Shown piece by piece: positions 4,635 to 31,964 of a DNA stretch of 40,344 nucleotides. The stretch comes from an uncultured Bacteroidales bacterium (GTDB lineage: Bacteria > Bacteroidota > Bacteroidia > Bacteroidales > Muribaculaceae), in assembly GCA_902772965.1 (NCBI GenBank), contig CACYCT010000049.1, forward strand, positions 1-40,344, written 5' to 3'. The position numbers were made by a program, and so were the translations under genes. Positions within the stretch are counted from its first letter, which is position 1; each line of letters opens with the position of its first letter. The notes under the pieces were generated by a model. It was not told the origin of the DNA. It saw nothing but the letters and a program-made list of their open reading frames with translations, and did not search any database.

Positions 4635-5594
4635 TTAACGCGCACCTGTGTAAAACTTTTTATCCAGATGTGGGACGAGCGTATTCGTGATTCTGAGGGT
4701 GTTGATTCGTGTTCCGGTTTGGTTCAGGTGGTATCCGGTGTCGAAGGCGCAGGAGTCCGGCACAGTCATCTGTTCTGGCGGCTTCGCGTAAGCGTGTCCG
4801 ATGGATTCCAGTGCCTCTCCGATGTGGTTGTTGTAGTTGAGGCGGAAGTTTGCCTGGGAGGAGGCCGGCGGGAGGATAATCACGCGCGCGCCGCGTTTTT
4901 CGTACAGGCTGATGGTATGCTTGAGATAGTGGATAAATTCCTTGTCAACGGTTTGATGTGTTGTTGCCGTTCCGGGATTTGCGGGTTGGTTGCTGAATCG
5001 CAGGTGGCTCACCTCGTCGCCGTAGGCATTGAATCCGCTCCGGGTGTAGACAAATTTGTCGGTTCGGGGTTGTGTGTCGAGTGTGTGTGTTATCGGCCAC
5101 TTGGCGAGGCGTTTGAGATTGGTCCACGCCACCTGGGGGATGCCGGCTGTGACGTTTCGGAGTTGGGCGGCGTTCATGCGTCGGGCGTTTTCCCATCCGA
5201 TGGTGTTGAGTAGTAGCGGCAGGGTTTCGGGCTCTCCGTTTCCGCCCGAGAAAAAGTTGCCATACTCGATTTGCAGCACCACGATGTCGCCGGGTTTGAT
5301 GTAAGGCAGCGATTCGTCGAGCGAAAACCGGATTCCGATTCCGGCATGCAGTCCCATATTGACCACCTCCATCGAGGTCGCCTGTGCGATAAGGCGCGAG
5401 TCGATGCCGAAGGCGGTGTTGCTTCCGCCGATAATCACGATGCGCGGGGGTGACGTGGCTTGCAGTCGTTTCATCTTGTCGGCGTAGGCGAGCAGGTAGT
5501 GGTTCTTGTCGGTCGGGACAAGGAGAATCAGCGCGGCGTTGAAGCCGATAAACGTGCAAGCGAACAGGAGTAATCGTAAACAGAAGCGCTTCAT
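4635..5594 (-). CDS. SGNH-like hydrolase or acyltransferase partner, membrane anchored
   Basis: The 319-residue protein starts with a basic N-terminus and one hydrophobic helix (residues 5-26), an uncleaved anchor or signal peptide. The rest is therefore probably periplasmic. IVIIGGSNTAFGID contains an SGNH block-I-like Ser58, and DTGYHLNQTG near the end supplies Asp285 and His289, the expected acid and base spaced three apart. Its gene begins 3 bases after the stop of an MBOAT gene. By analogy with AlgI/AlgX/AlgJ and DltB/DltD pairs, the MBOAT protein would move an acyl group across the membrane and this protein would transfer it to, or remove it from, a glycan or other envelope target. The acceptor is unknown. 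Confidence 0.75.
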   Translation of the reverse strand: MKRFCLRLLLFACTFIGFNAALILLVPTDKNHYLLAYADKMKRLQATSPPRIVIIGGSNTAFGIDSRLIAQATSMEVVNMGLHAGIGIRFSLDESLPYIKPGDIVVLQIEYGNFFSGGNGEPETLPLLLNTIGWENARRMNAAQLRNVTAGIPQVAWTNLKRLAKWPITHTLDTQPRTDKFVYTRSGFNAYGDEVSHLRFSNQPANPGTATTHQTVDKEFIHYLKHTISLYEKRGARVIILPPASSQANFRLNYNNHIGEALESIGHAYAKPPEQMTVPDSCAFDTGYHLNQTGTRINTLRITNTLVPHLDKKFYTGAR

Positions 5595-5597
5595 CGT

Positions 5598-6995
5598 TTA
5601 AAATCGGAAGTAGATAAATTGCGATTGGGTTCCGGCATAAACGCAGATTAGCATTGCCAAAACGACGTAACAGGCCATTCGGAGGCTGCCGTGTCGCGAC
5701 AAAATCGAGTTGGGACTAAATTGTAACGCGTGGTCGCGTGTCCGCGCCATCCATTCGGCGGCGAGCATGAGTATGCCTGCAGCGATCGGCAGAGCGAGCG
5801 TTTGCGCGGGCAAAGTGACATGGAGGCTGTCCCACCGCGTGAGTGTGCAGAAGAACGTCATCGCTTGCGTCAGGCTTTCGGCCCGGAACAGAATCCAGCC
5901 TAAGCAAACCAATAAAAAGGTGAAGCACATTGCCGCCAATCCGCCTCGGTTGTTTCGTCCCGCTAAGCGCCAAATCACGATAAGCGTTCCGTGCCACAGT
6001 CCCCAAGCGACAAAAGTCCATGACGCGCCGTGCCAAAGTCCGCTCAGCGCCCACACGAACAATATGTTGCGGAAAGTTTTCGCCTGTCCTTGTCTGTTGC
6101 CGCCAAGGGGTATGTAAACGTAGTCTCGCAGCCACGACGTGAGCGAGATGTGCCACCGTCGCCAGAAGTCGGCGATATTGACCGCGAAATAGGGGTATCG
6201 GAAATTGATGGAGAGATTGAATCCGAACAGTTTGGCGCAGCCGAGTGCGATGTCGCTGTATCCGGAGAAGTCGGCATAGATTTGCATGGCGAACAACACC
6301 GCGGCGATGGCTGCCTCGGGCGCTGTCGCCGAATCCAATCGCGCCCAGATGGCGTTGACGGCCACGGCGCAGTTGTCGGCCACGACCATTTTTTTGAACA
6401 GTCCCCATAACATTTGCCGCAGTCCGTCGGTGGCGACAGAACCGTCAAACTTTCTCTCTCGCCCGAATTGAGGCAGCAAGTTGCTTGCGCGCTCGATCGG
6501 GCCGGCCACCAGTTGCGGGAAGAAACTGATGTAGGCGAAAAAGTGTACGGCGTTATGCGTGGGGCGTATGTCACCGCGCGCGATGTCTATGGTGTAACTG
6601 ATGGCTTGGAATGTGTAGAAACTGATGCCTACGGGCAGAATCAGGTGCAGTGTGGGGCAGTTGGGGTTGAAGCCGATCAGTCGCAACAGTTCGGCTGCCG
6701 ATTCGGCGAAAAAGTCGAAATACTTGAATGTGAGCAGCACGGCCAAATTTACCGCGACATTTGCCACGAGCGCCCATTTCCGTTTTTGTGGCCATTGCTC
6801 AATGATTAGTCCTGTGGCGAATGCCGATGCCGAAATCAAGGCAAGTAAGCCGCAAAACCGCCAGTCCCACCATCCATAGAACACATATCCAGCCACGAGC
6901 AGGAACACGTTCTGCCGCCTGTGGTCGCGAATCGCTCGGTATAACGTGAATGTTATACACAGGAAACATAGAAATTCCATTGAGTTAAAGAGCAT
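5598..6995 (-). CDS. MBOAT family O-acyltransferase (AlgI/DltB-like)
   Basis: The 465-residue, strongly hydrophobic protein has about ten membrane segments and the hallmarks of the AlgI/DltB branch. These are the opening LFNSMEFLCFL, the motif LPVGISFYTFQAISYTIDI, the histidine in FWRRWHISLTSWLRDYVYIPLGGN (His282) and the conserved catalytic-type His322 in LSGLWHGASWTFVAWG. The family moves acetyl or other acyl groups from the cytoplasm to extracytoplasmic polysaccharides or proteins. The next gene encodes an SGNH-like partner. The gene starts 10 bases after the stop of the sigma-barrel fusion gene, so the three genes form an apparent operon. The acyl acceptor cannot be read from the sequence. 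Confidence 0.92.
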   Translation of the reverse strand: MLFNSMEFLCFLCITFTLYRAIRDHRRQNVFLLVAGYVFYGWWDWRFCGLLALISASAFATGLIIEQWPQKRKWALVANVAVNLAVLLTFKYFDFFAESAAELLRLIGFNPNCPTLHLILPVGISFYTFQAISYTIDIARGDIRPTHNAVHFFAYISFFPQLVAGPIERASNLLPQFGRERKFDGSVATDGLRQMLWGLFKKMVVADNCAVAVNAIWARLDSATAPEAAIAAVLFAMQIYADFSGYSDIALGCAKLFGFNLSINFRYPYFAVNIADFWRRWHISLTSWLRDYVYIPLGGNRQGQAKTFRNILFVWALSGLWHGASWTFVAWGLWHGTLIVIWRLAGRNNRGGLAAMCFTFLLVCLGWILFRAESLTQAMTFFCTLTRWDSLHVTLPAQTLALPIAAGILMLAAEWMARTRDHALQFSPNSILSRHGSLRMACYVVLAMLICVYAGTQSQFIYFRF

Positions 6996-7004
6996 GGCGG
7001 CAAG

Positions 7005-8732
7005 TTAAGGCACGATTCTCAGGCCGATAGGAAGTGTGAAATCAAAGGGGTGGGTTGTGTGGTAGTTCTCAATGCCATTGTGTGTTGGGAAGTAGTAACG
7101 CAAAGACGGCTCGATGTACAGATTCATGTGCGGTAGCAGTTTGAATTGCGCGCCAACCCCTGCTCCCACCGACCATTGCATAGGCGGATGAATACGATTT
7201 CGTACGGTAGGGAATACGAGCGAGTCGGGTTGTGCGGGTTCAAAAGGCCCTGTGTAGAGGTAGCGAGTGGTGGATTTTCCTTTGAGCGGAATATCGAGTT
7301 GAACCGAGGCGGTGGCATAGACCGAGAGTCGCCGGTGTTGCCAGATATTGTATGTGGCGCCGAGCGGGACGCTGAGGTAGTACAGTTTTTGTGTACGTTG
7401 CTCAATATAATTTCCGTTGTCCTCACTTTCAAATGTTGACTTCATTGTCTTTACGCCTATTCCGGAAGTAATACTCCATCGGTTGGAAAGCGGGAAAGCC
7501 ATGGAAAGCATATATGTTCGCGGCCGTTCATGCCGCTTTGTCTCACTCAGCGGTGTCGCGTCGTATGAGATAGAGTCGGGTTGACAGGAGTCTGATTTAT
7601 CAATTGTGTCGGTGTGTTGCTCAAGCCTGCTTCTCATAATCTTCAACGTGGCTGTGTCTATGTGTGCCTCGTTGGCTTTAATATAGTTGGCGTAGTCTTT
7701 CCAAGTGAACAGTTGTGCCGACTGGGTTTGCCCGGGCGCGGCGAAGTTGATTACAGTGAGGAAGTTGTCAATCACAGTCGTTCCTGAGCCCGGCACACCG
7801 CCATATTGTATGTTCCACTTCGGTCTGAAAGGCGTGCGCGTGGCGGTAGATATCCGCGGCGGCAAAGTTGGAGTGCCTGTGATGTGTGGCAACAAGGGTA
7901 GGTTCAGTGTCGGCACACAAGGCACAAACCCGCGATTGGAAATGGTGGCGGTTGAGGTGTCAGTGATGCCGATTTCCGGTGTCACAACGTCTGATTTGCC
8001 GAAGTGTCGCGCGATTGGCGGTTGAGATGTTCCGTACTGTGAGGTATCAGATTCACGCGGAACGGTTAGTGAGGGAGTTGTTTTCGCGGTTGTCGGTTCG
8101 GGAATAGGTTTTCCGGGTTGTGTGTCAGAAGTGTTCTTCGTGGTCAAGAGGACTGTTACCGAAATGATTGCGGCGACAACAGGAAGCATCCAATACTGTT
8201 GAATCAGGTTGCGCATAATCGCTTTTGCACGGTGGAGTTGCGAGCGGGAAGTGTTCTCGGAAATTCCCAGACGATCGGCGATTTGCCGATGGCTTAGGCC
8301 TTCAAACATTTTAAGCCGGAATACTTGTTTGTAGCCATCGGGCAGTTGAGCCACCAGAACCGAAATTTGTTCGAATGAGATTTCCTGACAAGTTTCTTCC
8401 AACTCTTCGGGTTCCGGTGCAAAGTTAAGCGACTCTGTTGAGTGTGTTTTGTTGTATTTCAGGTAATTAAGTGCTGTATTCTTCACGATGGCGCGCATCC
8501 AGGCGCTTATTCGGTTGGGTTCGCTAAGCGCGTTTAGCGAAGAGAGAATCATCACCCATGCGTCGTGCTCCACATCTTGCGCCGCTTGCTTGTCGGGCAC
8601 GATTTGCATAGCCATTTTCAAGAGTTGGTCGTGGTGCTGTGAATACAACTCGGCCAAAGCCTGCCTGTCGCCCTTCCGGCATTGCTCAACGAGCGATGCT
8701 TGGCGGCTTGCTATGTTGTCGGATAAAGGCAT
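7005..8732 (-). CDS. ECF sigma factor fused to a membrane helix and outer-membrane beta-barrel-like domain
   Basis: One uninterrupted 575-codon frame; I chose the ATG at 8732 rather than a TTG nine codons upstream. Residues 20-90 are sigma-70 region 2 (AQDVEHDAWVMILSSL, ISAWMRAIVKNTALNYLK). Residues 125-178 are region 4, with an HTH (LSHRQIADRLGISENTSRSQ). Residues 181-198 are a membrane helix, and 200-305 a Pro/Thr/Ser-rich linker. Residues 305-575 match what I recall of the barrel protein often encoded beside ECF sigma genes in Bacteroidales, with repeated amphipathic strands (YMLSMAFPLSNRWSITSGIG, YYLSVPLGATYNIWQHRRLS, WSVGAGVGAQFKLLPHMNLY) and the end FDFTLPIGLRIVP. In relatives the sigma factor and the helix-barrel protein are separate. 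Here the sigma domain would sit in the cytoplasm, tethered to its envelope domain. It leads an operon with the MBOAT and SGNH-like genes. Confidence 0.88.
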   Translation of the reverse strand: MPLSDNIASRQASLVEQCRKGDRQALAELYSQHHDQLLKMAMQIVPDKQAAQDVEHDAWVMILSSLNALSEPNRISAWMRAIVKNTALNYLKYNKTHSTESLNFAPEPEELEETCQEISFEQISVLVAQLPDGYKQVFRLKMFEGLSHRQIADRLGISENTSRSQLHRAKAIMRNLIQQYWMLPVVAAIISVTVLLTTKNTSDTQPGKPIPEPTTAKTTPSLTVPRESDTSQYGTSQPPIARHFGKSDVVTPEIGITDTSTATISNRGFVPCVPTLNLPLLPHITGTPTLPPRISTATRTPFRPKWNIQYGGVPGSGTTVIDNFLTVINFAAPGQTQSAQLFTWKDYANYIKANEAHIDTATLKIMRSRLEQHTDTIDKSDSCQPDSISYDATPLSETKRHERPRTYMLSMAFPLSNRWSITSGIGVKTMKSTFESEDNGNYIEQRTQKLYYLSVPLGATYNIWQHRRLSVYATASVQLDIPLKGKSTTRYLYTGPFEPAQPDSLVFPTVRNRIHPPMQWSVGAGVGAQFKLLPHMNLYIEPSLRYYFPTHNGIENYHTTHPFDFTLPIGLRIVP

Positions 8733-8756
8733 TACTATTCTACTCACTATATAGGA

Positions 8757-8778
8757 CAACGTTATGCCGCAAACGTTG
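8757..8778. promoter_or_regulatory. Inverted repeat upstream of the sigma-barrel fusion gene
   Basis: CAACGTT at 8757-8763 and AACGTTG at 8772-8778 form a perfect 7-bp inverted repeat with an 8-base spacer, 25-46 bases upstream of the ATG. It lies between this gene and the terminator of the upstream operon, where the promoter must be. On the minus strand it includes AACGTTTG, a near match to the -7 box. It could be an operator or part of an ECF-type promoter; this is an inference. Confidence 0.35.
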
Positions 8779-8791
8779 CGCGGCGAGGGTC

Positions 8792-11558: not shown

Positions 11559-12611
11559 TTATGAATGTTGGGCAAGGCGCTTGATGGTTTCAATATCTTG
11601 ACCCAACGCGGTTGCGATTTGTTGGTAAGACTGTCCGGCTTGGAGCATGTATCTGATGCTTATTCCAAGCATTTTGTCTTTCTCGTCAAGTTGTTCCTGT
11701 TTCTCGTCGAGTTGCTCCTGTTTCTCGTCGAGTTGCGCCTGTTTCTCGTCAAGTTGTGCCTGTTTCTCGTTGAGTTGTGCCTGTTTCTCGTCGAGTTGCT
11801 CCTGTTTCTCGTCGAGTTGCGCCTGTTTCTCGTTGAGTTGCACTTGTTTCTCAGCCAATTTACGGTCCTTAATCAACAGTTCGGTGTCGCGTTTTTCGAT
11901 AACTGAGAAGAACTCGTCCTCAACACTCATATGATGCCGGATTTTGGCATCGGCTGCGGCTTGGGTCAGTCGCGTGAGAATCAGGTTCATCTCTGTGTCG
12001 TTTTGGTAGGTTTCATTATCGATGCTGATGATTCGTCCGTCGTTGGGGTCTTTATTGGTCTGGTCGAATACACTCAGGATTTTAAATAGCCGTCCGTTGA
12101 TTTGTCCGCGCAAAAGAGGTATCTGCACGATGATGCTGTCGTGGTTGAGACTTTTGACGAATGAACTGGACATACCTTCGTTGACAGAGATTCCGGTATA
12201 ATCGGCGCAATGATGGTCGACGTAAAGCACGGGTTCGTCAATGTCCTCCACCCGATGTCCGAGAATGTAGATGGCCACCATTGGCATTGCGATGCCGTTG
12301 ACCACGTTCGAGGGGTTGGAGTAGTGCACCCCGAGGTACTGCCTGAAGCGCAGCGTTTCGGTTTCGAGCCAGGTTTTCTGCACTTCAATGAGAATCATAC
12401 TTTCCTTGCCGTCATTGTCGCGAATGGTGGCGGCGAAGTCGATTCGGAAAATCGAGAGGGAGTCGCGTGTGGAGTCGGAGTACTCGTGTGGGCGTAATTC
12501 CACTTCCACCACATTCTTTTTCAGCAAAGCGGAAAGTATGGTTCGTGCCACACGCTTGTCTTCCATCAGGTACTTGAAGACGACGTCGTATATGGGGTTG
12601 GCGATTTTCAT
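11559..12611 (-). CDS. Rpn/PD-(D/E)XK family nuclease with C-terminal heptad repeats
   Basis: The N-terminal 235 residues belong to the Rpn/'PD-(D/E)XK nuclease family transposase' group. It opens with NPIYDVVFKYLMEDKRVART, and the nuclease core is IDFAATIRDNDG followed by MILIEVQKTW (Asp, then Glu-x-Gln-Lys). E. coli Rpn proteins are nucleases that promote RecA-independent recombination. Residues 252-314 are nine heptads of the form L(D/N)EKQxQ, an ideal coiled coil that should drive oligomerisation. The last 36 residues (QSYQQIATALGQDIETIKRL) resemble a small HTH. No terminal inverted repeats or other transposon features flank it, so it is not called a mobile element. Members are often multicopy in a genome, which could be checked. 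Confidence 0.88.
   Translation of the reverse strand: MKIANPIYDVVFKYLMEDKRVARTILSALLKKNVVEVELRPHEYSDSTRDSLSIFRIDFAATIRDNDGKESMILIEVQKTWLETETLRFRQYLGVHYSNPSNVVNGIAMPMVAIYILGHRVEDIDEPVLYVDHHCADYTGISVNEGMSSSFVKSLNHDSIIVQIPLLRGQINGRLFKILSVFDQTNKDPNDGRIISIDNETYQNDTEMNLILTRLTQAAADAKIRHHMSVEDEFFSVIEKRDTELLIKDRKLAEKQVQLNEKQAQLDEKQEQLDEKQAQLNEKQAQLDEKQAQLDEKQEQLDEKQEQLDEKDKMLGISIRYMLQAGQSYQQIATALGQDIETIKRLAQHS
11670..11858 (-). repeat. 21-bp tandem repeat encoding nine heptads
   Basis: Nine consecutive 21-base units inside the Rpn-like gene each encode L(D/N/A)EKQxQ or a close variant (the last is LDEKDKM). Units differ at only a few bases, mostly those switching Asp/Asn and Ala/Glu. Because 21 is a multiple of three, gain or loss of units keeps the frame, so the tract is a plausible length-variable minisatellite. 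Confidence 0.9.
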
Positions 12612-31118: not shown

Positions 31119-31152
31119 TTGCGGTTTCTCAGGAAGATTCCGAAGAATCATA

Positions 31153-31160
31153 TAACTTTG
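31153..31160 (+). promoter_or_regulatory. Candidate -7 box for the M50 peptidase gene
   Basis: TAACTTTG is a perfect TAnnTTTG match 24 bases before the ATG at 31185. It also decides the start, because an earlier in-frame start at 31119 would lie upstream of transcription. The -33 region is weak. Confidence 0.5.
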
Positions 31161-31184
31161 CGCATACAATCTAATACCCCTTTT

Positions 31185-31964
31185 ATGAAAGCATACAACA
31201 ACAATTATTACCCCACACCAGTCGAAGATGAGCAGCCTGAGGGCTTTACGCTCAACTGGCCTCCGTTGGCACTTTTGGCCCTACTGATGCTCACAGGCTA
31301 TATCAAAGACTGGACATTCATCGCTTTTCTCACCATCGTGGTGATTATCCACGAGTTGGGGCATGTGGTGATGGGCACCCGCTTCGGTTGTCGCATTAAG
31401 GAGATGCAGGTGTTTTTCTTCGCTTTTCTCAGTTATAAGCCTCATGAGGGAGCCGGCGGCGGTTGGTGGCGCAAAATCAAGTGGAGCCTCGGTGTGCTGC
31501 CATGGGGCGGGTTCACGATATTCGACACCTTTCCTGTTGCCGATGAAGACGCGGAAAATGAAAATCAGACGAGGCCCATCGACCCCGCCTCTCCCTATCT
31601 GAACGATAAACCGGCCTGGCAGCGTCTGCTGATTTCGGCCGGAGGTGTGCTGTTCAACCTCGCCACGTTTTTGGTGTTTTATTTCCTCGTTCTGGTCATT
31701 CCGGCTGATACGTGGTACACCTTCTGCCGTCCGATCGCGTTCTTGTCGATGATGTTGGCCCTGCTTAACCTCCTGCCCATCTATCCGCTTGATGGCGGAG
31801 CGATTCTGTTCGCCCTCTATGAGATACTCACCGGCCACCGGCCCGCGCCCGGGTTTGTGAAGGTTTGCGGAATCATCGGCGGAGTGATTGTGGTTCTGCT
31901 CTTTTGGGTATTCCCTCAGGTTTTGAGCGGTTTTGTTCAAAACGTGTTGGGCACGATCTTCTGA
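31185..31964 (+). CDS. M50 family membrane metalloprotease (site-2 protease type)
   Basis: The 259-residue protein has several membrane helices and both M50 signatures: the zinc-binding HELGH (His56, Glu57, His60) in a membrane helix, and LLPIYPLDGG with the third ligand Asp203. Site-2 proteases cut transmembrane segments, often of anti-sigma factors. The usual PDZ domain of RseP is absent; instead residues 115-140 form a short acidic loop (VADEDAENENQTRPID). The substrate is unknown. An envelope-signalling role is a guess, since a membrane-bound sigma factor is encoded some 22 kb away in the same window. It appears to be transcribed from its own promoter. Confidence 0.88.
   Translation: MKAYNNNYYPTPVEDEQPEGFTLNWPPLALLALLMLTGYIKDWTFIAFLTIVVIIHELGHVVMGTRFGCRIKEMQVFFFAFLSYKPHEGAGGGWWRKIKWSLGVLPWGGFTIFDTFPVADEDAENENQTRPIDPASPYLNDKPAWQRLLISAGGVLFNLATFLVFYFLVLVIPADTWYTFCRPIAFLSMMLALLNLLPIYPLDGGAILFALYEILTGHRPAPGFVKVCGIIGGVIVVLLFWVFPQVLSGFVQNVLGTIF

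Follow-up and report, generated by a model that had tools for sequence, protein, structure and literature searches.

The Dma proteins were discovered only recently, and they touch on the question of how a signal passes from the outer membrane to a sigma factor. In Bacteroides thetaiotaomicron, Dma1/Das1 and Dma2/Das2 form pairs of a dual membrane-spanning anti-sigma factor and a sigma factor, the Dma protein being built of an anti-sigma domain, a helix, a disordered tether and a barrel (PMC13088901). IutY of Pseudomonas putida (ECF243) joins a sigma domain, a helix and a periplasmic domain in a single chain, from which the sigma factor is freed by Prc and RseP (PMC5411451, PMC8999054). C-terminal membrane extensions on sigma factors have also been described in the groups ECF48, ECF52 and ECF53 of Actinobacteria (PMC8999054). 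In the literature searched, which excludes the original Dma1 paper (PNAS 2024) and the reclassification of ECF factors from 2021, we found no earlier description of a fusion such as the one reported here.

The window, that is, the whole 40,344-nucleotide stretch of DNA analysed here (contig CACYCT010000049.1 of an uncultured Muribaculaceae bacterium), contains a gene whose sequence confirms an ECF sigma factor in one frame with a membrane helix, a tether and a predicted outer-membrane barrel (Table 1). The frame runs from an ATG at 8732 down to 7005; an alternative TTG start at 8759 would extend the product to 584 aa. An initial annotation made from the letters alone had described an uninterrupted frame with sigma regions 2 and 4, a single helix at residues 181–198, a Pro/Thr-rich linker and a C-terminal beta-barrel-like domain. 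All four elements hold: the frame is open over 575 aa, with every Pfam call above its curated cut-off; the most hydrophobic window of the whole protein is found at residues 180–198; pLDDT stays under 50 throughout the linker (residues 202–296); and the barrel-like domain is matched by OMP_b-brl_2, by a confidently modelled fold and by Foldseek hits to known barrels. Sigma-70 regions 2 and 4 with no region 3, the combination that marks an ECF factor, were found by Pfam in the window protein and in 32/32 relatives.

Table 1. Positions of the fused gene, its parts and adjoining features in the window
Feature	Position	Strand	Basis or remarks
Fused gene: ECF sigma–inner-membrane helix–periplasmic tether–outer-membrane barrel	7005..8732	(-)	575 aa, single open frame
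Sigma region 2 (residues 29–94)	8451..8648	(-)	Pfam PF04542 Sigma70_r2, E=1.7e-9
Sigma region 4 (residues 121–171)	8220..8372	(-)	Pfam PF08281 Sigma70_r4_2, E=2.7e-16
Single membrane helix (residues 180–198)	8139..8195	(-)	Hydrophobicity; begins 4 residues past the end of the sigma match
Thr/Pro-rich tether, predicted disordered (residues 202–296)	7845..8129	(-)	pLDDT < 50
C-terminal small outer-membrane barrel domain (residues 305–573)	7014..7820	(-)	Pfam OMP_b-brl_2 at 411–549; predicted fold
Promoter-like element CGCAAC-N17-GTCCTA upstream of the fused gene	8752..8780	(-)	Recurs ahead of sigma genes, fused as well as separate
MBOAT (DltB/AlgI-like membrane O-acyltransferase) gene	5598..6995	(-)	Pfam PF03062, E=6.5e-28; NCBIfam DltB below cut-off
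SGNH-hydrolase-like partner of the MBOAT gene	4635..5594	(-)	GGSN and GYHLN motifs, by eye

The AlphaFold2 model of the 575-aa fusion, computed from an alignment of 32 relatives, has a confident sigma part, a C-terminus rich in strands and one continuous helix at residues 159–203 that leads from sigma region 4 through the membrane segment. The fold of the sigma part matches those of SigW, E. coli sigma E and other ECF factors, and SigW is also its best PDB sequence match in a profile search. Folded alone with 63 sequences, the barrel part reached pLDDT 87.1 and pTM 0.81, and its Foldseek matches include OmpA (TM 0.57 by target length), the N-terminal barrel of OprF (0.62), Ail and OmpT. The barrel fold expected by the initial annotation was obtained; the number of strands, which it had proposed to count, could be narrowed by the models only to 8 to 10. 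The last residue of the window protein is Pro and not the usual aromatic residue. Pfam finds no FecR-like CSS anti-sigma domain in the protein, and there is no separate sigma gene among the neighbours of the fused gene within the window.

The one-chain design is far from unique to this contig. Six full-length relatives with 41–43% identity come from independent MAGs whose contigs carry the label Muribaculaceae, Porphyromonadaceae or Bacteroidales. A protein search of our family sample (198 Muribaculaceae genomes, 30 genera) returned many single frames of about 480–670 aa containing the sigma as well as the barrel end. With a profile, matches at E < 1e-70 were obtained in 37/198 genomes and 12/30 genera; since the match in one of them (G040) contains an internal stop, the fair count is 36–37/198. 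In the sample of the order (393 Bacteroidales genomes) fusions also occur in three further families (f5, f59 and f111), and elsewhere in it two adjoining genes encode the sigma factor and the barrel protein separately. Among the 395 genomes of the phylum sample, in each of which the three best candidates were scored, no fusion was detected outside Bacteroidales. Pfam recognises sigma regions 2 and 4 in 32/32 aligned relatives and OMP_b-brl_2 in 30/32; besides sigma and barrel families it reports only DUF2715 (in 3) and no CSS domain. The genome of the window itself has a second copy (G000:C173:16-1179, locus L008), with sigma factor, helix and tether, truncated at the contig end.

The draft state of the window genome (198 contigs) invites the suspicion that misassembly or a sequencing error deleted a stop between two genes. 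We regard such an artefact as having practically no chance of being the explanation, as the fusion is present in 40 distinct proteins, one of them from a single-contig genome, and an anti-sigma part is absent from them; fused relatives already refute it. The initial annotation had named close relatives in which the two genes are always separate as the observation that would speak against it, and the closest relatives turned out to be fused. The search for this architecture across Bacteroidales that it called for likewise shows the fusion to be conserved, with 40 distinct examples, which supports its proposal that sensor and sigma factor are a single polypeptide with the sigma domain held at the inner membrane. 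Because the same design recurs in dozens of relatives, the fusion appears to be a genuine signalling device, not an accident of sequencing.

The comparison of 40 distinct fusions (Muribaculaceae plus a small number of other Bacteroidales) with 28 separate Dma-like proteins shows what has changed in the chain. The separate proteins have 49 aa (43–58) ahead of the helix, followed by a tether of 186 aa and the barrel. In the fusions the median distance from the end of the sigma domain to the helix is 5 aa (range −1 to 8), and the median tether is 190 aa long, its lengths overlapping those of the separate proteins. A profile of the Dma-like N-terminal part, which does recover the separate-gene loci, gives no match to any fusion (best E 0.68), nor does it detect such a part in the loci of the fused genes when all frames of at least 30 aa are searched. 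As far as profile searches can show it, the fusion thus lacks a Dma-type anti-sigma domain, both inside the protein and nearby. Since the part of about 49 aa is absent and the sigma domain ends about 5 residues from the helix, sigma occupies the place of the anti-sigma domain. Simple loss of a stop codon between two genes was also considered as the origin of the fusion, and it is ruled out by the missing anti-sigma part.

Several features of these chains bear on their topology and processing. Net charge is higher before the helix than after it in 37/40 fusions, as would be expected if the N-terminus lies inside. Many outer-membrane proteins end in W or F, and this is the C-terminal residue of 30/40 fusions. 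Proline inside the helix is found in 22/40 fusions vs 3/28 separate proteins, related sequences being counted as independent in this comparison; a helix proline would suit intramembrane cleavage, which we take as a hint only. A helix of this kind could also act as a signal anchor, and the fusion might always be cut early into a free sigma factor and an ordinary barrel, the common gene serving only to equalise their amounts. Such constitutive cleavage seems very unlikely to us, given that the tether is as long as that of the separate Dma-like proteins and that, with no anti-sigma function left, the liberated sigma factor would be unregulated and self-inducing.

In the tree of the sigma parts, the fusions fall into a single group (support 92/98), together with L008, L049 and L050, next to the Das-like sigma factors that are encoded separately. 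The barrel tree unites the 28 separate proteins in one clade (100/96), and every fusion lies on the opposite side. Both trees suggest that the fusion most likely arose once. Repeated independent fusion is not supported; the apparent exceptions within the fused group are L008, which meets a contig end, L050, which contains a stop, and L049, a frame-shifted copy whose parts are spread over two overlapping frames and which shows signs of decay. In some genomes the fused genes at L018, L020, L049 and L050 are broken by stops or frameshifts, so that the fusion is sometimes lost through decay instead of being split into two working genes. Between close pairs, dN/dS is 0.07–0.24 for the sigma part and does not exceed 0.10 for the barrel, with mostly higher values for the tether; the low values for sigma and barrel show that strong purifying selection maintains both ends in one gene. 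The replacement of the anti-sigma domain, a family of probably single origin and the shared promoter-like element described below are points absent from the initial annotation.

A paired-word count over the upstream regions, made with no preset motif, gave 12/40 against a shuffled maximum of 8. At a similar position before fused and separate sigma genes alike, an element can be read from the sequences (TGCAGT-N17-ATCTAT and the relative TGCARC-N16/17-GTC), and the upstream region of the second copy in the window genome, L008, has a clear TGCAGC...GTTGTC. A loose pattern was present upstream of 28/40 fused genes (200 shuffles: mean 3.5, maximum 9) and of 19/37 separate sigma genes (shuffled mean 2.4, maximum 8), these figures being descriptive because the pattern was written after seeing the same sequences. 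Two strict promoter patterns had 3 and 3 matches in the whole window genome vs 5 and 2 in reversed controls; as they are no commoner than in the reversed control, no regulon is visible beyond the fused gene's own operon. That the sigma factor drives its own operon is the likely reading.

The fused genes are often the first in clade-specific operons, and their downstream genes are kept within clades. In the window the MBOAT gene follows the fused gene after 9 nt and is probably co-transcribed with it; the SGNH-like product has no match in Pfam or NCBIfam. The same pair stands downstream of 6 distinct fused genes, the window's included. Six fused genes are followed by genes for a radical SAM protein and a Gfo/Idh oxidoreductase, 4 by a gene for a CotH-like protein and 3 by a methyltransferase gene. 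The radical SAM (SPASM) and Gfo/Idh/MocA pair is located directly or closely downstream at L095, L096, L106, L107, L108 and L110, in three families of the order; the CotH-like kinase-family proteins are encoded at L091, L101, L103 and L110, and some of them have lipoprotein-like starts. Elsewhere in the window, 11559–12611 (-) encodes a 350-aa protein with C-terminal EKQAQLDEKQ-like repeats, probably a long coil, whose Pfam matches are all weak.

The nature of these downstream genes has to be weighed against the idea that the barrel binds no ligand at all and serves as a sentinel of its own assembly, its insertion by BAM protecting the periplasmic part and failed insertion exposing it to proteases. 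The sigma factor would then report outer-membrane assembly stress by the logic of RseA and DegS, contained in a single chain. The strong constraint on the barrel (dN/dS no higher than 0.10), its frequently aromatic end, the long tether, predicted to be disordered, and the presence of genes for RseP and Prc-type proteases would all agree with such a role. We nevertheless hold it to be unlikely, though the least so of the alternatives, since the clade-specific downstream genes resemble specific surface functions more than a general repair regulon.

The reading we prefer, to which we give slightly better than an even chance, is that of a fused Das/Dma-type signalling protein in which the inner-membrane tether holds the sigma factor off and RseP-type proteolysis frees it, as happens with Pseudomonas IutY. 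The chain would run from the cytoplasm through the inner membrane and the periplasm to the outer membrane, and tethering to the inner membrane would itself be the off state; a simultaneous span of both membranes would depend on a tether that the model predicts to be disordered. At the barrel the trigger may be a ligand, an altered outer membrane or an assembly failure. A Prc-type or other protease would then trim the periplasmic part, after which RseP would cut the membrane helix and release the sigma factor. Once free, the sigma factor would use the shared upstream element to transcribe its own operon, and in the window genome the output would be more receptor together with the surface-polymer O-acyltransferase pair. 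The genome encodes RseP, next to dxr, as well as three Prc-type proteases that score above the family cut-off; such proteases are common, and their presence is no proof that the fusion is their substrate. The window also contains, at 31119–31964 (+), a short M50 site-2-type protease (281 aa, HELGH motif), distinct from the RseP encoded on another contig.

Release by proteolysis could be dispensed with if the sigma factor bound polymerase and promoter while attached to the membrane, much as ToxR or CadC does, the barrel shifting its conformation or position with no cleavage. Between sigma region 4 and the helix the 40 fusions have a short link whose length is conserved, and the modelled continuous helix at 159–203 could pass on force or orientation. 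We consider transcription from the tethered state rather improbable, however, as a sigma factor ordinarily has to contact polymerase at numerous sites, and in IutY, the closest tested analogue, RseP cleavage is needed for the activity of every variant bearing the membrane segment (PMC5411451). A further reading is that of a single chain devoid of any anti-sigma module, with tethering across the envelope as the sole inhibitor, that evolved once by the sigma factor replacing the anti-sigma domain of its partner Dma. We believe this further reading to be about as probable as its opposite. Sigma/anti-sigma contact has been removed in the fusions, and they therefore pose a clean question, namely whether envelope attachment alone keeps a sigma factor off. 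They would represent a natural one-gene device leading from the outer membrane to a promoter, complete with an apparent promoter of its own and target genes specific to each clade, and the Muribaculaceae that carry them are a widespread family of gut bacteria.

The separate pairs to which the fusions are related were anticipated by the initial annotation, which gave a barrel protein with its own helix, encoded next to an ECF sigma gene, as the usual arrangement in Bacteroidales; this is correct and corresponds to the published Das/Dma pairs, whose Das factors are assigned to group ECF21. Fusions and pairs have in common the ECF sigma factor, the single membrane helix, the long disordered tether and the C-terminal small barrel, and the Das/Dma-like separate pairs found in our analysis carry the same kind of promoter-like element. 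The fusion differs in being one polypeptide, not the product of two genes, and in having the sigma factor in place of the N-terminal anti-sigma domain; with this domain absent and sigma in cis, it is not a Dma by strict definition. The Actinobacterial ECF48, ECF52 and ECF53 resemble it in that the C-terminus of sigma is fused to membrane helices and an extracytoplasmic part, and the ECF52 member SCO4117 also has a proline-rich region, but they belong to another phylum, have a zinc-finger anti-sigma part and lack an outer-membrane barrel. In IutY, too, a single helix and a periplasmic part follow directly on a sigma domain of much the same length, and a cytosolic anti-sigma domain is missing. 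In contrast to the fusion, in which none was found, IutY possesses a periplasmic CSS anti-sigma domain, and its TonB-dependent receptor is separate, whereas the fusion carries the outer-membrane barrel in the same chain. By analogy we infer that the fusion works most like IutY, and the window protein is best called a Das-Dma fusion.
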